From: Synechococcales cyanobacterium S06
GTDB lineage: Bacteria; Cyanobacteriota; Cyanobacteriia; Cyanobacteriales; JAABRE01
Assembly (NCBI GenBank): GCA_011391125.1
Contig: JAABRE010000005.1
Location: forward strand, 1-64,000
DNA: 64,000 bases
Direction of reading: 5' to 3'
In this document: positions 14,930-26,375 of the stretch, in pieces
How positions within the stretch are numbered: the stretch's first letter is position 1
Layout: every line of letters begins with the position of its first letter
The notes under the pieces: generated by a model
Told to the model about the DNA's origin: nothing
Seen by the model: only the letters and a program-made list of their open reading frames with translations
The model's database searches: none
Program-made: the position numbers and the translations under genes

Positions 14930-14988
14930 GCGCTTCTCTGGCTGGTAGGGGTGAACAACCGTTCACCCCTACACCCAACAACGAGCCT
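14930..14988. repeat. Palindromic repeat between convergent genes
   Basis: TAGGGGTGAAC and GTTCACCCCTA form a perfect stem around an ACC/CG loop, within outer arms TTGTTG/CAACAA. It resembles REP/MITE hairpins elsewhere in the window and may also end transcripts from either side. Confidence 0.6.
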
Positions 14989-15229
14989 ATTTTTTGCTTA
15001 ATAATTGGCTGATTTTTTTGATTCCCCAACTTGAAAATGCACCTAAAAATAAGATACCAATTGCCGGATTAAATAATGGTATCCAGAGTTTTTGCCATGT
15101 GGCTAAACCTAAATTTATGCCGACATAATCACCGAAAACGGCGATCGCAAACCAGAAAAAACCAACTAATACTAAAAACACATCAATTACTAATAGTTTA
15201 TCTATAAAATTAACAATTGTTTCCTTCAT
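14987..15229 (-). CDS. Small two-helix membrane protein at the end of the vWA/tubulin/motor locus
   Basis: This 80-residue protein has two hydrophobic segments (about 13-33 and 52-66) and ends in a basic tail (WGIKKISQLLSKK). I do not recognise a family. It follows the MotB-like gene on the same strand by 107 bp, the gap being filled by a palindromic repeat (15272-15335). It could be the last gene of that operon or an independent small membrane protein. AAGGAG lies upstream of the ATG. Confidence 0.6.
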   Translation of the reverse strand: MKETIVNFIDKLLVIDVFLVLVGFFWFAIAVFGDYVGINLGLATWQKLWIPLFNPAIGILFLGAFSSWGIKKISQLLSKK

Positions 15230-15271
15230 TTTGATCTCCTTTTTTATTAATTAATATATTATTATTATTTG

Positions 15272-15335
15272 GTAAGGTGCGTCAGACAAATAATTGAAAA
15301 TATTTAAGAAATTTGAATTATCTGACGCACCCTAC
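15272..15335. repeat. Short palindromic repeat (GGTGCGTCAGA variant)
   Basis: Arms GTAAGGTGCGTCAGA and TCTGACGCACCCTAC flank an AT-rich spacer. It is a variant of the GGTGCGTCACA family at 2511 and 3322, but both arms have changed together, keeping the stem. It is placed 1 bp before the stop codon of the MotB-like gene. Confidence 0.75.
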
Positions 15336-15336
15336 A

Positions 15337-16104
15337 TTATTCCCCAATGGTTTTTGCTTCCCCAAGGGGAGAAAAACGGATTTCAATGCGTCTTCTACTT
15401 GAGTCAGAATCGCGATTTTGCGGGGCAAATTTACCCGAAGGTAAAAACAATTGGGCCGCAGAATAAGCTCTAAATTGTAACCCTTTTAAGCGCCCTTTTT
15501 GCTGAATATTTTGCAGTTGTCTCGTTACTTCTAAAGCGCGTATTAAGCCTAAATCGGCATTTGAACCGGCTTTCAAGGTACTAACGGAAGCGTTACCAAG
15601 GGTAACTTTTTCTAAATTTTGATCTAAATTACTACCACTAAAACCGTTAGGTTGGCCATCAGTATGACCAATTATTTCTACTACATAAATATCATGTTTT
15701 TTTGTAATTTCTTCTATTTGTTTAACTAAATTTGTATTAATAAATTCCGCTAATTGGGTGGGTAAAACTGCACTCCCTGACTCAAATTTATATGCTCCAG
15801 AATCTTTAATTAATAATACGGGTGGAGCTTTTTTATCAATGTCAGATAAACGTTCAATTTCAGTTGTAAGTTGCTTTACTTTTATTTCATACTCCCCTAA
15901 ACGATTAACTTTTGCTTGTAGTTGCTCTATTTGTTTTTGTCGATCATTGTCAGTCATTTTTGCGTTTTTATTTAATACTAATAACTTAAATAATACTAAT
16001 ACTAAAAAAAGAGTTAAAATCATAAAAGCATTGGACATTAAATCGGTATAAGAAGCCCAAATTTGTGGCTCTTTATGATTAGAAATATATCGAGATTTTC
16101 GCAT
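15337..16104 (-). CDS. MotB/ZorB-like protein: TM channel helix plus OmpA-like peptidoglycan-binding domain
   Basis: This 255-residue protein begins with a short cytoplasmic stretch and then one TM helix in the MotB pattern WASYTDLMSNAFMILTLFLVL. Asp21 occupies the position of the proton-path aspartate of MotB/ZorB. A coiled coil (about 52-90) follows, then an OmpA-like domain with FESGSAVLP, EIIGHTDG (146-150) and the closing SRRRIEIRF. These proteins anchor the stator to peptidoglycan while the TM part conducts ions. The matching MotA/ZorA-like gene is at 16982-19435, separated by an inserted TA pair. Flagellar genes are absent, so a ZorB-like or other envelope role is more likely than flagellar MotB. 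Confidence 0.85.
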   Translation of the reverse strand: MRKSRYISNHKEPQIWASYTDLMSNAFMILTLFLVLVLFKLLVLNKNAKMTDNDRQKQIEQLQAKVNRLGEYEIKVKQLTTEIERLSDIDKKAPPVLLIKDSGAYKFESGSAVLPTQLAEFINTNLVKQIEEITKKHDIYVVEIIGHTDGQPNGFSGSNLDQNLEKVTLGNASVSTLKAGSNADLGLIRALEVTRQLQNIQQKGRLKGLQFRAYSAAQLFLPSGKFAPQNRDSDSSRRRIEIRFSPLGEAKTIGE

Positions 16105-16152
16105 GATTTTATTTTTATTCTCCTTTTTATAACCTGTATTATGAAATATAAC

Positions 16153-16251
16153 ACTTTCCGATTAAGTGTTATATTTCCCTCATCCCCCAACCCCCCTCAT
16201 CCCAAAGGGAGAGGGGGAAAGAGAGGTAAAATGTCAAATGAAAATGCTATA
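16153..16251. repeat. MITE-like repeat, copy 3
   Basis: It starts ACTTTCCGATTAAGTGTTAT and ends AAATGTCAAATGAAAATGCTATA, like copy 2 at 13266-13366. It lies between the MotB-like gene and the inserted doc gene, close to one edge of the TA insertion. Confidence 0.8.
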
Positions 16252-16268
16252 TAACACACCTTATTTTT

Positions 16269-16667
16269 TTATTTATTTAACTTTTTCGTAGCATATTTTA
16301 CTAACCATTCTGTTAAAAATTCTTCAGAAATTTTGCCATCTGCTAAATTTTTTATGGTCAAAACTACCTCCATTTCTGGAGCCTCAAAATAAAAATTATT
16401 TAGTCCTAAAAATACATACATTGCCATAAAAGCAACTCTTTTATTACCATCAATAAAAGCATGATTCTTACAGAAAGCAAAGCCATAAGCTGCGGCTAAA
16501 TTAAACAAAGAGACTTCGGAATTATAGGTAAAACAATGACGAGGACGTGCTAAACTTGCTTCTAATAATCCCTCATCTCTTACTCCAAATAAACCTCCAT
16601 ATTGTCTAATTAAATCCTTATGAATAGCTAATATTATTAATTTATTTAACCAAATTGGCTCATTCAT
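16269..16667 (-). CDS. doc: Doc/Fic-family toxin (death on curing)
   Basis: This 132-residue protein has the Fic core motif HAFIDGNKRVAFMAM, the Doc form HxFxDGNKR, with the catalytic His and the Lys typical of Doc. N-terminal IILAIHKDLIRQYGGLFGVRDEGLLEASLARP is the Doc family opening. Doc phosphorylates EF-Tu and stops translation. Its ATG overlaps the antitoxin's stop by 4 bp (16664-16667), showing translational coupling. The pair sits inside the vWA/tubulin/motor operon, on the same strand. Confidence 0.93.
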   Translation of the reverse strand: MNEPIWLNKLIILAIHKDLIRQYGGLFGVRDEGLLEASLARPRHCFTYNSEVSLFNLAAAYGFAFCKNHAFIDGNKRVAFMAMYVFLGLNNFYFEAPEMEVVLTIKNLADGKISEEFLTEWLVKYATKKLNK

Positions 16668-16888
16668 TGAGCAAGTTTCCTCAGTGCATTTCTAAATTTT
16701 TGATTTCCTTCCTGATATATGGCGATCGCCTGTTCAAATTCCGGATCATAAGGACTTAATTCAATTCCTTGCTCAGTTTCTGTTACAAATAGAATATCTC
16801 CTTCATCTAAGGTAAATTTTTCTAACAATTCTTTAGGGAAAGTAACTCCAATTGAATTACCAATTTTTCTTAATTTTAATGTTTTCAT
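16664..16888 (-). CDS. AbrB/MazE-type antitoxin of the Doc module
   Basis: This 74-residue protein has a swapped-hairpin AbrB fold: MKTLKLRKIGNSIGVTFPKELL, then DEGDILFVTETEQGIELS, followed by a helical tail that would wrap the toxin. I place the start at ATG 16888 because the family begins right there; a longer frame to 16948 adds 20 unrelated hydrophobic residues. It probably represses its own promoter, which would lie within 16889-16981. It overlaps doc by 4 bp. Confidence 0.88.
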   Translation of the reverse strand: MKTLKLRKIGNSIGVTFPKELLEKFTLDEGDILFVTETEQGIELSPYDPEFEQAIAIYQEGNQKFRNALRKLAQ

Positions 16889-16981
16889 TAATTTTTGATT
16901 TAATAATGTTATTACGTTTGTAGTTACAATGATAACACTAAAAATCATTTTTGTGTTATCATTCCGATTTATTCAAAAAAT

Positions 16982-19435
16982 CTAATTATTAGACAATTGA
17001 ATTAATTTGGTTAACTTGTTATTTAAACTAGGTAATTCTTGTTGTAAATGTTTAAATTGTTGGCTTGTTAATTGAACTACTTTTTCGAGAGAATTATCTA
17101 AATTTTCCATGTTAATTAATTCTTGTTGTAAGTTATGACAAATTGTATTAAAGTAATTATTCTCTGTTTTTTGTATTTGTAATATTTGATTAGAATGTTT
17201 ATCTAAATTAGTTATTTGTTGTTCACCTAATTTAGTTATTTTCTCAATACTTTGATGTAAGTTAGCTGCAATATCAGTTTGGATTAAACTAATTTGTTTA
17301 GAATGTTTGTCTAAATTAGTTAATTGTTGCTCTCCTAAGTTAACCATTTTTTCGGTGGTTTCCTGTAATTTTGCGATATTATTAGTTTCAGTTTGTAACT
17401 GTTTAGCAATATTGGTCAGATAATTTTGATTAGTTTTTTGTGACTCCATAAATTGAGTGGATTGTGTCTCTAAATTAGTTAATTGTTGTTCACCTAAGTT
17501 AACTATTTTATTAATCTCTTGATTTAAGTTATTAGAAAGCAAATTAATTGAGTTATTATTAGATTCTTGTAACTTAACAAATTCCTCTGATTGTTTGTTT
17601 AAATTGCTTAATTGAAGCGCTCCTAATTTAACCATTTTTTCATTAGTTTCCTGTAATTTTACAATATTATTAGTTTCAGTTTGTAACTGTTTAGTAATAT
17701 TGTTTAGATAATTTTGATTAGTTTTTTGTGACTCCATAAATTGAATCGATTGCGTCTCTAAATTCGTTAATTGTTTCTCTCCTAAGTTAACCATTTTTTC
17801 TGTAGTTTCCTGTAATTTTACAATATTATTAGTTTCAGTTTGTAACTGTTTAGCCATATTGGTCAGATAATTTTGATTAGTTTTTTGTGACTCCATAAAT
17901 TGAATCGATTGCGTCTCTAAATTCCTTAATTGTTGCTCTCCTAAGTTAACCATTTTACCAATTCCGTCATTTAAGTTAGTGGAAATATTCTGGTGTAATT
18001 CCCTAAATTGAGTGGATTGTTTATCTAAATTTGCTAATTGTTTGCCACTTAATTCGGTTAATTTTTGGACAGAATTATTAATATTAAGAATACCATTTTC
18101 AAGGGATTGGGTTGACTGATTTAAAACCGTAGTTGACTCGCTAAATTTTGCTTGAGTTTCCGCAAAACTTGCCGCAGTTAATGATAGTTGATCGGCAAAT
18201 TCACTATTTTTAATGGTTTCTGCTGATTCTAAAAATGTAATGGCACTTTCCTGCAATACTCCGGCGGATTTTTCAAATTCTTGGTAAATTTTGTCAGCTA
18301 ATTCTGTAGCTTTGACATTTTCTGCCATAAATTGGGGTAAAATTTCACCTAAAGATTTGGTTGATTGAGAAAAATTAGCTTGAGTTTCTGCTAATTTGAA
18401 AGTTAAATTTTCTAAATTTTCAGAAAATTTACTTGCTTCAATTTTTTCGGCTGCATTTTTAAATTTATTGGTAGAATCAGCAAAAATATTAGAAGTTGTT
18501 TGTAAACTGTGAGAAACTTGGACAAATTTTTGATTTTCTGTGGTAACTAATTTAACCTGATTTTCTATTATTTGAACCTGAGATTTAACTACATTACTTG
18601 CTGCTTGAAAAGTTGTTACAGCGTTAGAAAATGTCCCCGAAGATTCTAATAATCTCTGATAAACTTCCCTTGCTAATTGGTGAGATACTGCATTTTCTGC
18701 AATCATTTTATCGGCTGCTTTACCCATGGTTGACTCAATTACTTGGCCTACTTTTTCGTGAAATCTTGTTAAAAATTCGTTCTGTTGTTCCACCATCCGA
18801 TTAACAGCTTTATCCATTCTGGTATAACCATCAATACTAGGATGTAATTCATTGTCTAAGTAATCTTCTAACAAACTCATTAACTTATTTAAAGCAAAAT
18901 TGGTATTCCATCTGAGGTTACATAAAATTAAAATTGAGCTACAGAAAACCCCAAATAAGCTAGTAATAAAAGCGATTCCCATCCCTTTTAATGGTTCTTG
19001 AATTTGTGTTATTAAACTATTAATATTATCGTCATTTGTCTGACTAATGGTATCACTAAGACTAGATAAATTAAGGGTAATACCTAAAAATGTTCCCAAT
19101 AAACCAAAATATAACAAAAGATTGGGCAAAATTCGACAAAATTCATCCCATTTTTCGCAATGTAATTTACTCCCGAAAAACTCAAAAGTTTCCTCACTAT
19201 AAACACTATCTATTAAAGCAGTAGTGTTCACATTTTCTAATATATTACTCGCTTTTTGGAATTTCTGTTTTAATGTATCAACTATTCCTGAATGACGATT
19301 TCTTTGGATGTTTCTAGCAGAATCCCGTAAATGAAAATAAATACTACGACGTAAAAATATCGTAAAACAACTGATAGAAATTACGCTAAAAACAGAGACA
19401 CTTAGTAATGGAAAAAGCTTAACAAATTCTAACAT
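16982..19435 (-). CDS. MotA/ExbB/ZorA-like channel protein with a very long repetitive coiled-coil tail
   Basis: This 817-residue protein has three TM segments (about 5-27, 102-124, 152-174). The last two carry the MotA/TolQ/ExbB pattern: LLLYFGLLGTFLGITLNL and GMGIAFITSLFGVF. The remaining 640 residues are helical, Gln/Asn-rich and free of membrane segments, with near-identical 53-residue repeats (VNLGEQQLTNLETQS, then MESQKTNQNYL, then KQLQTETNNI). ZorA of Zorya defence has the same layout: a five-subunit ion channel with a long cytoplasmic tail. The partner with the channel Asp is the MotB-like gene at 15337-16104. The upstream gene is tubulin-like, which suggests the tail may contact a filament; that is inference. 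Confidence 0.85.
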   Translation of the reverse strand: MLEFVKLFPLLSVSVFSVISISCFTIFLRRSIYFHLRDSARNIQRNRHSGIVDTLKQKFQKASNILENVNTTALIDSVYSEETFEFFGSKLHCEKWDEFCRILPNLLLYFGLLGTFLGITLNLSSLSDTISQTNDDNINSLITQIQEPLKGMGIAFITSLFGVFCSSILILCNLRWNTNFALNKLMSLLEDYLDNELHPSIDGYTRMDKAVNRMVEQQNEFLTRFHEKVGQVIESTMGKAADKMIAENAVSHQLAREVYQRLLESSGTFSNAVTTFQAASNVVKSQVQIIENQVKLVTTENQKFVQVSHSLQTTSNIFADSTNKFKNAAEKIEASKFSENLENLTFKLAETQANFSQSTKSLGEILPQFMAENVKATELADKIYQEFEKSAGVLQESAITFLESAETIKNSEFADQLSLTAASFAETQAKFSESTTVLNQSTQSLENGILNINNSVQKLTELSGKQLANLDKQSTQFRELHQNISTNLNDGIGKMVNLGEQQLRNLETQSIQFMESQKTNQNYLTNMAKQLQTETNNIVKLQETTEKMVNLGEKQLTNLETQSIQFMESQKTNQNYLNNITKQLQTETNNIVKLQETNEKMVKLGALQLSNLNKQSEEFVKLQESNNNSINLLSNNLNQEINKIVNLGEQQLTNLETQSTQFMESQKTNQNYLTNIAKQLQTETNNIAKLQETTEKMVNLGEQQLTNLDKHSKQISLIQTDIAANLHQSIEKITKLGEQQITNLDKHSNQILQIQKTENNYFNTICHNLQQELINMENLDNSLEKVVQLTSQQFKHLQQELPSLNNKLTKLIQLSNN
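17040..18070 (-). repeat. 159-bp coding repeats in the ZorA-like tail
   Basis: The block starting near 17632 and the next starting near 17791 are exactly 159 bp (53 codons) apart and almost identical at DNA level. A third good copy lies near 17340-17500 and diverged versions fill the rest. Low divergence points to recent expansion or gene conversion. Confidence 0.8.
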
Positions 19436-19469
19436 GATTTATACTCCTAATGTAATGTTGTTATTGTAA

Positions 19470-19515
19470 TATTATGAAGACTCCCTCACCCTTTGGGAGA
19501 GGGTTGGGGTGAGGA
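19470..19515. repeat. CCCTCACCCTTTGGGAGAGGG repeat between ZorA-like and tubulin-like genes
   Basis: ACTCCCTCACC and GGTGAGGA-type arms flank TTTGGGAGAGGGTTGG. It shares the G-rich core with the MITE-like repeats at 13266 and 16153. It lies in the 80-bp gap and abuts the stop codon of the tubulin-like gene. Confidence 0.55.
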
Positions 19516-22500
19516 TTATATCCCTAAAATCCTTTTTTTAGCAGCATTAAATTCCTCCTCGGTTAAAAAACCTTCTTTTTTCATTTGCACTAATTCCCGT
19601 AATTTATCCATCTTAGAATCAGGATTAATATTATTAGAATTATCCACGATTTCTGGTTCAATAATGCTAGATTTAGGAAGATATTTTTCATTATTGTTAT
19701 ATCCTAAACTTTGATTATTTGCTTGTTTTTGTTTTTCAAATTCCTTAAATTTTTCTTGTAATGTGTTGTCAATTTTGTTCATAAAACGGGCAAGAACACC
19801 CTCTTGATAAGGAGTATCAAAACTTTCAAATTGTCCTGTACCTCCTACCTTATCTTTATAAGGGTAATTAGGATCTGTTTTTTCTAATCCTCTTATTTCT
19901 TTAATAAACTCTTGCAATTGACCTTTATATTTTTTCCAAAGTTCTTTATTGAAAATAAAGCTTTCAATTAATTTTTTAATTTTGTCATCTAATTGAGAAC
20001 TTAAATTTTGAAAATTTGCTAATTGTTCTAATGCTTGAGTCCAAATATTACTAATTAATATTATTTCTGTTGTTTCCATAAGTCTATCGTAATATTCAAA
20101 TTCAAACATTTCATTAGCATTTTTTGTAATAATTTTAAAGGCTATACAAGGATATAAAATATCTTGTAATCTTTCTATTTCAGCTGCGTCAGGGGGCAAA
20201 ATATCGGTGAATATTACAGATTCATTGTGAAGATGATTTCCATTATCTTTTAAACGTAGATAGTGTTGTTGTAAATATTTAATATTATTTAAAATTCTCA
20301 GGGGAAATCCACCATATTCTTGAACCAAAATAATTTCATCTTCAGCTTGAATTGGTTTTAAAACAGTTTCAGAAATACCTAAATCTCTGGTTAAAATACT
20401 TTTTAAATTGGCTACTTCTTGGGTATCTGCATTTTTAAAACCAATAATTTTTTCATTTTTACCCGGATCATTATAAAAATAAGGATCACTTAAACTAAGA
20501 GGTAATAATAAATCTGATTCTTTGATAATTTGTTCTAAACGATTGATCCTTTCTGAAGTTGTTAAATATTTTTGCATAAACCGTTTAATGACTGATTGTA
20601 CAATGTTTAGAGTTTGTGTTCCGAACATTTGTTCAATAGTTTTATTTAGCTCCTCTTTAATTTCTTGAATATCTAAAATATCTCTAGTAGCTAAACTAAT
20701 TAAAGAGTTATTATTAGCTAATTTTTTGACAATATTTTCACTAATTAGCATTAATTGAGATTGTCTTTCTTCTTGGGGAATTAATTTTTTGTAACAATCT
20801 TCTAAGTCATCTTTAGTAAAGATTGCTTGTCCACTCATTTCATCTAAATTAAGTTGTTTTTGTTCCTCTTCTTCCTTTTCATAAACACTGATTAAATCTT
20901 TAGTAAATTGATTAAAATTAGTTGATTTACTATCTAATTTTTGGACGTGTTGTTGTAAACTTTTAACAATTTCTAAGGCTTCTTCAGTTGCCGTAAAATC
21001 AAAATTACGTTTAATCATATCAGCAATTTCTCTAATTACTCGACTTATTTCCTGTTGAAATTGATTCTTTTTCTTTTTCTCTTGAGGAAATAAAAAATTA
21101 CCTTTTTTCTCAATTTCAGCAATAATTTGCATCGTATCTTGCCATTTTTTATTAATATCATCTAGGTCTGATACTTTCTTAAAATTTTGTTTTTTATCCT
21201 CCAAATAATTTTGATAATCATTAAGCTTAGTTTTTAAAGCTTGCAACCAACTTCTGCTATTGTTAACTGAAAATTTATCATTGGCAGGATTTAATAAATT
21301 GGCGAAATAACTATCAATATCTTCCTTTAATTTTTCAGTAAGATTTACTCTTGTTTGTTGTAATAACGTTAACCAAATTCCCCTTGTAGTTTCACTTTCT
21401 CCCGTTTGAATTGTCCTAAATTGTTTTTTAAATTTATCAGGTAACTGATGGATAATATTTTGGCGTTCTTCTTTTTTTTCTGTTTCATCAATGCTTCTTT
21501 CTAATTGATTAATCCATGTTTTTATTGTTTTACTAAAGGTATTATTCCCCTCTTGAGTAATTTCTTGTAATTTAATACTGAAATAATCTTTATTAGTAAC
21601 AGTAGTTTTCCAAAAATCACTTAAAAAACTTTCTAATAAATCTTTGGCATCAGGACTTTGACCAATCCCATATAACCAAAACTGGACTACTTTAACACTA
21701 ATGTGTTTCCAAGCAACCTGAATAATTTTATCCCTCGGAAAATAAATTTCTGCTAAACCAAAAGTCATATAACTTTGTGTATTAGGTCTTGGGTGTCTGT
21801 CAAAATCAGGTAAATGAGATGAAATATTATTTCTTAATCCTTGAATTGTTGGTGATAATTCTCCCACAAAATCTAAAAATATTTTGTGAGCAATAATATT
21901 ACAAAGTTTACTTTGTTCGAGAATTTTATAAGAACCATCGCTTGTTTGATTAGAAACTAGATAAGTAAAATCAAAAGGAGGCCGATCTTCTTGAATATTA
22001 ACTGAGTTTTGTGGATCATAACAAGCAACAAATTCTGTACCAGGAGTGGTATAGTGATTTAGTTCTTTTAAAGCACTATAAGTATTAGCATTTTTTCTGG
22101 GATCATCCTGACTTTTACGATACAATTCTGGACTAATGATAAAATATCCAAAAAATTTTCCCCCTTGACTACCAAAAATATGTCTTAGGGTATAAGCAGT
22201 ATCTAAAAACATTCCGCTTCCCGTACCACCACAGAGAGAACCCACTACAAAAATATTCAATCCTGACTCAACTATTAAGCCTTTTTGTAATAGTTTTTCA
22301 TCATAGCCTCTATTTCGATTATCTGCCATTTCAATTGCTTCTTTAATCCGACGATAATTGTTAAAAAAGGCTAATCGTCCTACTGGTCTAATGGCATTAG
22401 CTCCCTTTGTAATTGCGTTTAAATCCTTTATTAGTTGGGGTGGAAACCATGATGCAATATGGTCATAAGGATTAATTTGATCGCTATATTTTGACTTTTT

Positions 22501-22806
22501 CTCAACACCTTGGACGAAATTATTTACTTGATTTTGATTCATGGTGGCTTCTACTGTTTCAGCATCACGAAATAAAATATCTTCTCCATGGTAAGTAGAA
22601 CCAGTCCGCAAACCTGAACTTTTAGAAGCAGCGGTATCCGTGTCAATATGAACAAAACTGACCACGGGCAATTCACTCAAGCTGCCGTAACGGTCAATAA
22701 TTTGCCGCCGAATCCTCATCAAAACATCCCTACCCGTACCACCTAAACCCACACAAATAGTACGTTGAATCGTCCGATTTTGCCTTTCTGTATTCATTTC
22801 AGCCAT
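19516..22806 (-). CDS. Tubulin/FtsZ-superfamily protein (Tubulin_2-like) with C-terminal SHOCT-like tail
   Basis: This 1096-residue protein has an N-terminal GTPase domain of the tubulin superfamily: ICVGLGGTGRDVLMRIR (T1 loop, 18-34), VSFVHIDTD, and the tubulin signature SLCGGTGSGMFLD (190-202). NANTYSALKELNHY follows in the position of the helix that contacts the base. The middle 500 residues are helical and charged. The last 30 residues (LRELVQMKKEGFLTEEEFNAAKKRIL) look like a SHOCT oligomerisation motif. I choose ATG 22806, preceded by AAGGAGG; the longer frame from 22851 starts inside a hairpin. It lies between the vWA gene and the ZorA-like gene. It would bind GTP and may polymerise; its role is unknown. 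Confidence 0.85.
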   Translation of the reverse strand: MAEMNTERQNRTIQRTICVGLGGTGRDVLMRIRRQIIDRYGSLSELPVVSFVHIDTDTAASKSSGLRTGSTYHGEDILFRDAETVEATMNQNQVNNFVQGVEKKSKYSDQINPYDHIASWFPPQLIKDLNAITKGANAIRPVGRLAFFNNYRRIKEAIEMADNRNRGYDEKLLQKGLIVESGLNIFVVGSLCGGTGSGMFLDTAYTLRHIFGSQGGKFFGYFIISPELYRKSQDDPRKNANTYSALKELNHYTTPGTEFVACYDPQNSVNIQEDRPPFDFTYLVSNQTSDGSYKILEQSKLCNIIAHKIFLDFVGELSPTIQGLRNNISSHLPDFDRHPRPNTQSYMTFGLAEIYFPRDKIIQVAWKHISVKVVQFWLYGIGQSPDAKDLLESFLSDFWKTTVTNKDYFSIKLQEITQEGNNTFSKTIKTWINQLERSIDETEKKEERQNIIHQLPDKFKKQFRTIQTGESETTRGIWLTLLQQTRVNLTEKLKEDIDSYFANLLNPANDKFSVNNSRSWLQALKTKLNDYQNYLEDKKQNFKKVSDLDDINKKWQDTMQIIAEIEKKGNFLFPQEKKKKNQFQQEISRVIREIADMIKRNFDFTATEEALEIVKSLQQHVQKLDSKSTNFNQFTKDLISVYEKEEEEQKQLNLDEMSGQAIFTKDDLEDCYKKLIPQEERQSQLMLISENIVKKLANNNSLISLATRDILDIQEIKEELNKTIEQMFGTQTLNIVQSVIKRFMQKYLTTSERINRLEQIIKESDLLLPLSLSDPYFYNDPGKNEKIIGFKNADTQEVANLKSILTRDLGISETVLKPIQAEDEIILVQEYGGFPLRILNNIKYLQQHYLRLKDNGNHLHNESVIFTDILPPDAAEIERLQDILYPCIAFKIITKNANEMFEFEYYDRLMETTEIILISNIWTQALEQLANFQNLSSQLDDKIKKLIESFIFNKELWKKYKGQLQEFIKEIRGLEKTDPNYPYKDKVGGTGQFESFDTPYQEGVLARFMNKIDNTLQEKFKEFEKQKQANNQSLGYNNNEKYLPKSSIIEPEIVDNSNNINPDSKMDKLRELVQMKKEGFLTEEEFNAAKKRILGI

Positions 22807-22830
22807 TTTTACCTCCTTAATAACATTTTT

Positions 22831-22865
22831 TAAGAAACCAAGTTTCTTCAAGAAACTTGGTTTCT
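22831..22865 (-). promoter_or_regulatory. Long hairpin between vWA and tubulin-like genes
   Basis: AAACCAAGTTTCTT and AAGAAACTTGGTTT form a 14-bp stem with almost no loop in the 66-bp gap. Similar AAACCAAGTTTCTTGAAG hairpins are common between cyanobacterial genes. Here it lies directly upstream of the Shine-Dalgarno of the tubulin-like gene and could attenuate or stabilise the transcript. Confidence 0.6.
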
Positions 22866-22872
22866 ATACTAC

Positions 22873-23952
22873 TTATTTTTCAATTCTAATGGTTATCTCG
22901 TAATCCTTATCCGGACAATTAAGGCGAATTATGCAGTTAGAAATTATTTCTTTTTTAGTAATTTCTCGGCTGTTAAATTCAATGGGATGATCTTGATCTC
23001 CAGAAAATGTCAGAAAAAGTTGATTACCCTGACGTTGCAAATAACCCCTAATCTGATCGCCCGGACATTCAATCGAGTTATTTTCACTTCCACCAATAGC
23101 AATTTTATCTCCATTTTTAAGGGTTAAATTTTGGGTTTCATCTTTGGGTAATTCGACTTTAATATTCCATGGTTTTTTAATCTGTAAAAGGTATTTGAGG
23201 AAGAAAAAAGTACCAATTAAATCCCCGATAATAAACAAGGAAACCAATAACACAGGTAGCCATAATTGACTAATTAAATAGTTAGTAACTAAACAGGTTT
23301 CTTTACCACCGGGAGCAGGAGTACAAATTTCTTGGACTGTAGGGGGAATATCGACTACAGTTAACTTATAGTTATCAATAGAAAGCGATCGCTCCTGTTT
23401 TGGTAACACATTTAACCAATTATTTCTCTCCTTCGTTTCTGATGAATTTGAATTTCTATAAGGGGAATCAAAAGGAGTTTCGATCCATGGTTCTTTAGTA
23501 TTTAAAGGAGCGTCAGTTACCCAAACAATAGACTGAGGTTTAATCGGTTTATTATCTAACATTCGGCACTGATTAATTTCAGCTAATTGATGATAAATAA
23601 ACCCTTCAGCTTTTTGAATATCAGTATTACTCAGGTTTCTATCAGTTTGAAAGGGAATGATCGAGAGAATTTTATCAATTTCAGCTTCATTTTCTGTAAA
23701 TTGAATTATCTCTTTGCTAGGATAAATATCATTTGCAAATGGAATCACATACACCGTATCTCCCTTACTCAAACTATCAGAAACTATCTGACGCAAACGG
23801 ACACGACCCTGGTCATTAAAACCAACACTCTCAGTAAGGTCAATGGCGAGAACAACATCTCGGCCACGGAGAAAAGAAACCCATTCCAAACCCGTTTTTT
23901 GCCAAGGTTTCAAGGGTTGACCGATAGTAACAGTGGTACAATTATTCGTCAA
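22873..23952 (-). CDS. vWA-domain membrane protein
   Basis: This 359-residue protein has an N-terminal von Willebrand A fold: RDVVLAIDLTESVG (MIDAS DxTxS, 38-42), SLSKGDTVYVIPFAND, NLSNTDIQKA (the MIDAS Thr) and SIVWVTDAPL (the last Asp). A TM helix follows (about 227-256), then a beta-rich C-terminal domain of 100 residues that might be FHA- or Ig-like. There is no signal peptide, so the vWA domain's side of the membrane is unclear. The start is TTG 23952, with no in-frame ATG nearby. It is the first gene of the operon leading into the tubulin-like and MotA/ZorA-like genes. vWA domains bind partners through a metal ion. Confidence 0.82.
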   Translation of the reverse strand: MTNNCTTVTIGQPLKPWQKTGLEWVSFLRGRDVVLAIDLTESVGFNDQGRVRLRQIVSDSLSKGDTVYVIPFANDIYPSKEIIQFTENEAEIDKILSIIPFQTDRNLSNTDIQKAEGFIYHQLAEINQCRMLDNKPIKPQSIVWVTDAPLNTKEPWIETPFDSPYRNSNSSETKERNNWLNVLPKQERSLSIDNYKLTVVDIPPTVQEICTPAPGGKETCLVTNYLISQLWLPVLLVSLFIIGDLIGTFFFLKYLLQIKKPWNIKVELPKDETQNLTLKNGDKIAIGGSENNSIECPGDQIRGYLQRQGNQLFLTFSGDQDHPIEFNSREITKKEIISNCIIRLNCPDKDYEITIRIEK

Positions 23953-26030: not shown

Positions 26031-26375
26031 CTAAAAATCGGATTTTTGAAGAGAATAAATTACTTGATAAGTCTTTAAAATTTCGGCTTTACGATAGGGA
26101 TTTTCTAACATTTTTTTCTCAATTATATCGACACTCCGTTCAAATTTTTCTTCTAATTCTCGTTTCATTCTAACAAGATCAAATAAATCTAAGTTAGATT
26201 CTGGTTTAAATTCAAGTAAAATATCTAGGTCACTGAAATAATTAAAATCATCCCTTAATACTGAACCAAATAAAGCAAATTCTTGAATGTACCAACGTTG
26301 ACAAAAATCCTTAATCCACTCAAGAGAGACATGATTAAGACGTGTTTTCCATTTATTTTTTAGGGTAAGAATCAT
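26031..26375 (-). CDS. MNT-type nucleotidyltransferase domain protein
   Basis: This 114-residue protein has an intact minimal nucleotidyltransferase motif: EFALFGSVLRDDFNYFSDLDILLEF, with both Asp of DxD, and a third Asp in RSVDIIEK. It resembles the antitoxin of HEPN-MNT modules, which AMPylates the HEPN RNase. No HEPN partner adjoins it: yidD is convergent (stops 1 bp apart) and thrB divergent. It could be an orphan antitoxin or act on a distant partner. Confidence 0.85.
   Translation of the reverse strand: MILTLKNKWKTRLNHVSLEWIKDFCQRWYIQEFALFGSVLRDDFNYFSDLDILLEFKPESNLDLFDLVRMKRELEEKFERSVDIIEKKMLENPYRKAEILKTYQVIYSLQKSDF

Follow-up and report, generated by a model that had tools for sequence, protein, structure and literature searches.

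The window, a 64,000-nucleotide stretch of contig JAABRE010000005.1 from Synechococcales cyanobacterium S06 (host genome of 4.81 Mb in 168 contigs), carries a run of seven open reading frames (ORFs) on its minus strand, from 23952 to 14987. Four of these ORFs form a conserved unit, encoding in order a vWA-transmembrane (TM)-FHA protein, a tubulin-like protein, a ZorA-like protein and a ZorB-like protein. The four genes of this cassette, and a repeat inside one of them, are:

22873-23952, minus strand: vWA protein, 359 amino acids (aa) from a TTG start
19516-22806, minus strand: FtsZl1/Tubulin_2 protein, 1096 aa from an ATG, with a further open start (TTG at 22851) upstream of that ATG
16982-19435, minus strand: ZorA-like (MotA/ExbB-type) pore subunit, 817 aa, with three TM segments and a tail of about 640 aa
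17600-17956, minus strand: tandem repeat in the tail of the ZorA-like protein, with a 159-bp (53-aa) unit
15337-16104, minus strand: ZorB/MotB-like subunit, 255 aa, with one TM segment, an Asp at residue 21 and an OmpA-type domain

We looked for the tubulin-like protein in 386 genomes sampled from the phylum. Relatives at E ≤ 0.001 were found in 68 of the 386 genomes, and 40 genomes contained a close orthologue (>400 bits). The surroundings of 39 of these orthologues were fetched and, together with the window itself, gave 40 tubulin loci. A first survey, which also took in loci with more distant Tubulin_2 proteins, covered 61 related loci. Nearly all close tubulin orthologues adjoin ZorA or ZorB, and all four cassette genes were recognized at 35 of the 40 close-orthologue loci. 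Among the five incomplete loci, three stop at a contig edge (L052, L053 and L064) and one is without ZorA (L072); the fifth is taken up below.

For the second set, contigs from one genome per species were scanned with an alignment as the query, and the best 80 of 434 relatives were taken; a query of the same contigs with the single tubulin protein gave no match. All of the best 80 were cyanobacterial by record title, with hosts including Nostoc, Anabaena, Dolichospermum, Trichodesmium, Microcystis, Prochloron, Chamaesiphon and Hydrococcus. Since only the best 80 of 434 were kept, confinement of the cassette to cyanobacteria does not follow from them. The four genes occurred together in 68 of the best 80 of 434 relatives; some of the other 12 were short contigs, and one locus contained tubulin and ZorB without ZorA (L121). 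The two sets have at least 13 contigs of identical length in common, so the counts of 40 and 80 are not additive. Joint occurrence in other genomes, the check proposed in the preliminary description of this DNA (made from the letters alone), was observed in both sets.

Intact loci numbered 92 with duplicates kept (30 of the 40 and 62 of the 80). All four genes lay on one strand in 91 of the 92, with median intergenic gaps of 18, 74.5 and 54 bp, and ZorA lengths varied between 414 and 1236 aa. Pairwise distances of the four proteins were correlated across 55 non-redundant loci (Mantel r 0.69-0.87, reached in 0 of 1000 permutations), which is weak evidence because species was not controlled for. 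In three genera the cassette was present in 9 of 53, 11 of 16 and 8 of 12 species. The tubulin gene was short or split, away from contig edges, at six of the 39 fetched loci (L061, L066, L068, L069, L070 and L072), four of which (L061, L068, L070 and L072) belong to genomes of one to five contigs. At one locus, a gene for a dynamin-family GTPase (L127:6092-8533; PF00350, 6.6e-16) separates the vWA gene from a displaced ZorB.

By sequence comparison, the two membrane genes of the cassette encode motor subunits of the ZorAB class, nearer to Zorya ZorA/ZorB than to flagellar MotA/MotB. The ZorA-like protein of the window contains three hydrophobic segments, starting at about residues 10, 102 and 154, followed by a cytoplasmic coiled-coil tail of about 640 aa. 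Three such segments were present in 35 of 39 ZorA-like ORFs of the family, and a single one in 36 of 37 ZorB-like ORFs. Invariant positions in 28 aligned ZorA rows included the PNLL...GLLGTF block with T115 and S159 of the third TM segment; a TSL motif is conserved as well. The ZorB-like TM segment reads SYTDLMS (D21) and is followed by an OmpA-type motif, GHTD ... RRR; D21, G146-D149 and R237-R239 were invariant in 16 aligned rows.

The window proteins matched PADLOC ZorA1 at 2.9e-14 and ZorB1 at 5.1e-10. ZorA-like members matched PADLOC ZorA models in 28 of 28 cases and Pfam MotA_ExbB in eight of 28, although PADLOC is a defence library and the two counts are not a contest between families. 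A full-length ZorA profile run against the PDB was dominated by coiled coils, so the search was redone with the TM part only. At E < 0.01 this profile matched only five Zorya ZorA sequences (best 8vvn_C, 8.2e-6), with MotA (8gqy) at 2.3. The ZorB profile placed Zorya ZorB at the top (8vvn_B, 6.9e-7) and PomB next (7.4e-5). No ZorC, ZorD, ZorE, ZorF or ZorG was found by PADLOC among the seven operon ORFs or ten flanking ORFs of the window. The preliminary description had read the two proteins as a three-TM MotA-like protein with a long tail and a MotB-like protein with a channel Asp and an OmpA domain, had assigned them to a ZorAB-like motor and had seen no Zorya effector beside them; all of this was borne out.

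The ZorA tail lengthens by tandem repeats, of 53-aa units in the window and 101-aa units at L065. The first iterative ZorA profile drifted to coiled-coil proteins at L077, L079 and L088 and to one ORF of L092; these matches were judged spurious because the proteins are without TM segments.

The tubulin-like protein matched Tubulin_2 (PF13809) at E 5.8e-103 and 345.3 bits, against a cut-off of 27, and a SHOCT-like tail fell just below its cut-off (1.2e-5). Its GTP-binding loop, GGTGSG, which the preliminary description had noted in this member of the tubulin superfamily, was invariant in 18 aligned rows, while in 41 rows one Gly was nearly invariant. Searched by sequence against the PDB, the profile gave no tubulin match, and the six matches it did give at E ≤ 1 seem to reflect chance resemblance among helices. 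An AlphaFold2 model built from 41 rows (pLDDT 85.1) matched CetZ and tubulins by Foldseek (CetZ1, 1.7e-5). VIA-align, which compares only families in its tables, gave a Z of 24.5 against CetZ 3zid, with 303 residues aligned of the 360-residue chain and an rmsd of 3.7. The alignment, read from its end positions, spans model residues 13-857.

In the model, the last elements of the GTPase half are a strand (346-355) and a helix (358-379), which we assign by position to S6 and H7. The residues after H7 are mostly helical to 763, including a 76-residue helix at 575-650, and strands of at least three residues resume at 784. By eye, the helical stretch starts at about the T7/H8 position. This order of secondary structure suggests that the predicted tubulin fold is interrupted near T7/H8 by about 400 helical or coiled-coil residues (about 380-780), with the GTPase and C-terminal domains of tubulin both present in the model and connected by H7. 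The T6-H7 region and a related C-terminal domain of FtsZl1 were not identifiable in an analysis from 2010, according to the portions available of that article (PMC2875224), and Tubulin_2 proteins are described as being without the FtsZ_C and Tubulin_C Pfam domains in available passages of a 2023 paper (PMC9871819). The question of whether FtsZl1 keeps a full tubulin fold is answered here at the level of a model.

The vWA protein comprises a vWA domain (about 27-203), a long TM helix (221-259) and a C-terminal FHA-like domain (260-359). Its match to Pfam VWA_2 (E 0.0062) was under the cut-off, and its AlphaFold2 model had a pLDDT of 87.7. The predicted fold and TM helix agree with the vWA-TM protein of the preliminary description, in which the FHA-like domain had been overlooked. 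That domain was assigned from the fold alone, with a Foldseek match to the Rv0020c FHA domain at 1.1e-5 and a VIA Z of about 10 for the vWA and FHA domains alike. By eye it is without the Arg and Ser/His positions that we take to be usual for FHA domains, and phosphothreonine binding is for this reason not claimed. Residues D38, T40, S42, D111, C210 and C220 were invariant in 34 rows; presumably D38, T40 and S42 form the metal site, and the two Cys precede the TM helix. The same 34 rows contained no invariant Asp in the TM helix. Judged by eye, basic residues come after the helix, suggesting a cytoplasmic location for the FHA-like domain and an external one for the vWA domain.

Using the ZorB profile on the same 386 genomes, 61 ZorB-family matches of at least 130 bits were counted, 37 of them at tubulin loci. 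Surroundings were fetched for 19 of the 24 remaining matches, plus the distant phylum member G047. Solo ZorA-ZorB pairs without vWA or tubulin were seen, for example, at L185-L187, L189-L193, L196-L198, L200 and L202. In genome G054 a ZorB gene (L188) lies far from the vWA and tubulin genes (L047). The FtsZl1 of this clade accompanies ZorAB, and not the reverse, so the dependence is one-sided. The preliminary description would have been contradicted by tubulin-like and motor genes occurring apart far more often than together, and for this clade they do not; the motor itself is often elsewhere, and among 22 distant Tubulin_2 loci (L073-L093 and L003) a clear motor was present at one, L092. A link to the motor is not the rule for Tubulin_2 at large.

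A quick tree was built from 59 ZorB rows, 17 of them solo and 42 tubulin-linked (the latter selected from more). The labels needed seven changes against 15.0 when shuffled, and 22 of 56 inner branches were weak. Many solo rows were nested among tubulin-linked ones, which suggests that vWA and tubulin were lost in places. Solo ZorAB pairs at L196, L198, L200 and L202, one clade in this tree, have a kinase-like gene divergent upstream, recognized as Pkinase by Pfam at L196 and by eye at the other three.

At L194:3268-13761 and L195:4082-11968, in two genomes of a Microcystis-type genus, another insert is bordered by vWA and tubulin remnants. The L194 insert contained a small 488-aa Tubulin_2 protein (PF13809, 3.5e-7). 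The L195 insert contained three proteins related to those of the L194 insert, without that tubulin; its 1287-aa protein begins caspase-like by eye. At L092 (G047, 74% complete), one run of genes contained tubulin, four further ORFs, ZorA-like and ZorB-like genes, with a vWA-like gene ahead of tubulin (by eye; no Pfam match). This long version of the operon (L092/L204) has a 2482-aa ORF after ZorB. Two further observations concern Tubulin_2 genes: the host genome of the window has a second, divergent one on another contig, beside a gene that is vWA-like by eye, and a MotA/ExbB-looking four-TM gene (L078:11484-12869) is divergent from a distant Tubulin_2 gene.

Evidence for spread outside cyanobacteria came from plasmid records and G047. 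Among the four plasmid hits from Deinococcus, three were retrieved (L178, L179 and L224; hosts Deinococcus deserti, D. radiophilus and Deinococcus sp. QL22), and all three encoded tubulin-like, ZorA-like and ZorB-like proteins in that order. The QL22 ZorA-like gene is annotated MotA/TolQ/ExbB by NCBI. The ZorA profile of the window family matched all three Deinococcus ZorA proteins (7.2e-15 to 1.1e-12 among 22 proteins), although coiled coils may inflate these values. The link for ZorB rests on PADLOC ZorB models, which matched both Deinococcus ZorB proteins scanned (8.7e-6 and 8.5e-8), on gene order and on an FSDL motif with its Asp kept in all three, since the window-family ZorB profile matches one of the three, weakly. 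The tubulin gene of D. radiophilus is disrupted by an IS630 element. Directly upstream of the operon in QL22 (L224:1-3945) are an AAA ATPase and a DUF2357 protein, the latter presumably McrBC-like.

Two of three Thermaceae plasmid hits were fetched (L174 and L177; Meiothermus and Thermus), and both showed vWA and tubulin-like genes, one unknown gene and then brxL. No motor was recognized at these loci, of which L174 was scanned by library. Upstream, the Meiothermus locus also encodes DUF1156 and Swt1 HEPN proteins, a BREX-related context of FtsZl1. Plasmids of Rhizobium, Microvirga and Sinorhizobium (L227, L228 and L229) carried a different recurrent cassette, encoding a four-TM protein, a protein vWA-like by eye, a two-TM coiled-coil protein and an OmpA protein. 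That OmpA protein is close to the window ZorB (best 1e-41), and its TM segment seems to be without the usual Asp.

Taken as a whole, the cassette probably encodes an accessory, peptidoglycan-tethered ion motor that acts with the FtsZl1 GTPase as a cyanobacterial envelope machine. Gene content, order and conservation, motor-class homology and the kept ion-pathway and peptidoglycan-binding residues are observed, while the tubulin, vWA and FHA folds are predicted. The ZorA-like and ZorB-like proteins would form an ion-driven motor of five ZorA and two ZorB subunits, as inferred by homology with the solved Zorya complexes. The OmpA-type domain of ZorB would tether this motor to peptidoglycan, and the long coiled-coil tail of ZorA would extend into the cytoplasm. 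FtsZl1 would be a tubulin-fold GTPase with a helical insertion of about 400 residues projecting from the tubulin body, and the vWA-TM-FHA protein, predicted to span the membrane, is likely an adaptor placing FtsZl1 at the motor. On disturbance of the envelope, ZorB would engage peptidoglycan and ion flow would turn or rearrange ZorA and its tail; this movement could control GTP-dependent assembly of FtsZl1 on site. The 5:2 assembly, ion flow, contact between tail and FtsZl1, GTP binding, polymerization, and the orientation and gating role of the vWA protein all belong to the proposal. A rotary ion motor acting on a tubulin-type filament is a combination that we know of nowhere else. If correct, the proposal would connect the FtsZl1 clade and its Deinococcus relatives with a partner that can be tested, a source of energy and a location (motor, peptidoglycan and inner membrane).

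Several results weigh against this envelope machine. No motor was found near the tubulin gene at L047, the fifth incomplete locus of the 40, nor at L148 and L150 among the best 80 of 434. Of the 61 ZorB-family matches, 24 lay outside the 40 tubulin loci, two of these 24 beside vWA/tubulin remnants. NCBIfam scores were far under curated cut-offs (NF033915, 46.9 of 100; NF041788, 24.4 of 400), and because of these scores and the absence of an adjacent Zorya effector the motor was not classed as Zorya. The T7 region could not be identified in the model of the tubulin-like protein. No signal peptide was evident in the vWA protein, so its orientation is only inferred. Against D. radiophilus ZorB the window-family ZorB profile gave a weak match (4.9e-5 among 22 proteins), and it missed the other two Deinococcus proteins.

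As to role, defence against phage or other envelope attack, rather than housekeeping membrane remodelling, is plausible rather than demonstrated, and we hold it at slightly under an even chance. Counted in its favour were the Zorya-like motor, the patchy presence within genera, the short or split tubulin genes, the L194/L195 remnants and the brxL context in Thermaceae. More tentatively, the cassette may be a defence machine of Zorya-like type that uses a cytoskeletal effector in place of nucleases: ZorAB would sense envelope damage and trigger or drive assembly of the split-fold FtsZl1, held by the vWA-FHA adaptor. In this reading the module may have originated in, or reached, groups other than cyanobacteria, as in Deinococcus. 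Whatever its role, the association with FtsZl1 widens the modular use of ZorAB past nuclease effectors.

The searches for a defence setting told against this role. Using PADLOC on ORFs of at least 100 aa that did not touch the stretch ends, 66 families at E ≤ 1e-8 were counted over 150 flanking ORFs and 130 over 150 control ORFs taken elsewhere in the same genomes (19 regions), so there was no excess; the counts are of families, not ORFs, and a few control methyltransferases each match many models. The flank sample was 150 of 161 ORFs, the two longest chosen (L067 and L060) and nine of 107-112 aa being dropped, and the control sample 150 of 151 (one of 106 aa dropped), from one region per genome fixed at 37% along the contig. 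The genomic site was often identical within lineages (across 104 loci, duplicates included, 200 flank proteins fell into 113 clusters of up to 16). No tubulin orthologue was found among 72,556 plasmid records, which gave 10 distant Tubulin_2 matches, among 50,697 phage records, which gave one weak match, or in a pattern-based scan of viral contigs. The vWA protein had no match in plasmids, and the conserved unit contained no nuclease or toxin.

These results favour the alternative that survives best, although it too appears unlikely: a housekeeping membrane-remodelling or envelope machine, in which motor and filament shape the inner membrane or peptidoglycan with no phage role. Membrane remodelling is what Makarova and Koonin (2010; PMC2875224) proposed in the available portions of their article, and the other window genes, as far as scanned, are housekeeping-like. 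Against a housekeeping role, 44 of 53 species in one genus are without the cassette, which is broken or displaced elsewhere, and the motor is Zorya-like and not MotAB-like.

Rather improbable is the view that a ZorAB motor and a vWA-FtsZl1 pair are two neighbouring systems, co-inherited yet working separately. Solo ZorAB pairs do exist, the G054 ZorB lies far from vWA-tubulin, and in Thermaceae FtsZl1 stands beside vWA with no recognized motor. The tight order and spacing in the 92 intact loci argue otherwise, as does the recurrence of tubulin beside ZorAB in Deinococcus and G047. The nesting of solo ZorAB in tubulin-linked groups is consistent with secondary loss, despite the weak branches noted above.

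A gliding, secretion or pilus-related machine, with the ion motor driving surface movement, is very improbable: many hosts belong to filamentous genera, but the cassette also occurs in the unicellular Microcystis, Prochloron and Chamaesiphon and is missing from those 44 of 53 species, and the proposal of vWA proteins with TolQ-like motors as force transducers, in the text available of one article, is its other support (PMC12204202).

Other features of the window were as follows:

16664-16948, minus strand: AbrB/MazE-type antitoxin (TIGR02609, 64.4 bits, cut-off 55.9)
16269-16667, minus strand: Doc/Fic toxin (TIGR01550, 72.1, cut-off 38.65), with a 4-bp overlap with the antitoxin gene
14987-15229, minus strand: small two-TM protein, 80 aa
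24044-24115, minus strand: tRNA-Lys, directly upstream of the vWA gene

The AbrB/Doc pair sits cleanly between the two motor genes, both of which are left unbroken. The toxin is the sole match within its own genome, and its motif HAFIDGNKR, which we take to be the Doc motif, looks intact. Neither AbrB nor Doc homologues were found in the 61 loci of the first survey or the 80 of the second, and the pair, seen in the window only, was rejected as a component of the system. The small two-TM ORF had no relative in the 61 related loci (it was not sought in the second set of 80) and lies outside the conserved unit. The preliminary description had thus placed its five minus-strand genes correctly, but it missed the pair between the motor genes and its small fifth gene is not part of the unit. 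A tRNA insertion site was rejected as a general feature, any tRNA being present at four of 48 related loci scanned. A large ORF 3′ of ZorB was rejected as a fifth component as its identity varies (leuS-, secA- and uvrA-like by eye); an ORF family of 828-861 aa was found downstream of ZorB at L036, L039, L042, L045, L066 and L072. At 26031-26375 the window encodes an MNT-type nucleotidyltransferase (NTP_transf_2, 7.9e-15; PADLOC PDC-S09).

A literature search joining ZorA, tubulin, vWA and MotA/MotB, mostly of open-access articles judged by title, start of abstract or passages, found no description of this combination among the papers listed, the closest being PMC12204202 and PMC7159879, and no reported function of FtsZl1 was found. 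The claim that no described system has this composition did not survive as put, since operons of FtsZl1 (Tubulin_2) with vWA and OmpA-family genes were described in 2010, with membrane remodelling as their proposed role (Makarova and Koonin, 2010; PMC2875224). Those operons share with the cassette the tubulin family, the vWA partner and an OmpA-domain partner. They differ in that MotA, TolQ, ExbB and proton are absent from the article text as available, in which OmpA genes are treated as membrane transport proteins, and in that the window model aligns over both tubulin halves, where the T6-H7 region and C-terminal domain had not been identified. Not all OmpA neighbours of FtsZl1 are ZorB-like: the one in Azospirillum (L175) has no ZorB-like TM segment with an Asp.

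The vWA-TolQ force transducers (PMC12204202, 2025) likewise have a vWA protein beside a 5:2-type motor, but there, in the passages available, the vWA protein itself bears either the pore helix with its Asp or a TolA-like SHLS motif, whereas in the cassette a separate ZorB bears the Asp; tubulin is absent from the text available. The GTPase/tubulin/vWA conflict systems (Kaur et al., 2020; PMC7159879) resemble the cassette in having tubulin homologues by membrane vWA proteins, read there as conflict systems. According to the portions available, they are GTPase-centred, with GAP1/FNIII partners, and occur in Firmicutes and Actinobacteria, with MotA/MotB absent from that text.

Zorya (8VVN, 8VVI and 8QYD) is the nearest relative of the motor, with a three-TM ZorA bearing a long coiled-coil tail, a ZorB with a channel Asp and a peptidoglycan-binding domain, the best sequence matches in the PDB and NCBIfam, and matches in PADLOC. 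Zorya needs ion flow, attachment to peptidoglycan and the ZorA rod for its defence, and the ZorB Asp is critical, as stated in the available parts of Mariano et al. (2025; PMC11890865; 8VVN, 8VVI). The cassette differs from Zorya in its scores under curated cut-offs and in having no ZorC, ZorD, ZorE, ZorF or ZorG adjoining in the window; the partners of its motor are instead FtsZl1 and the vWA-TM-FHA protein.

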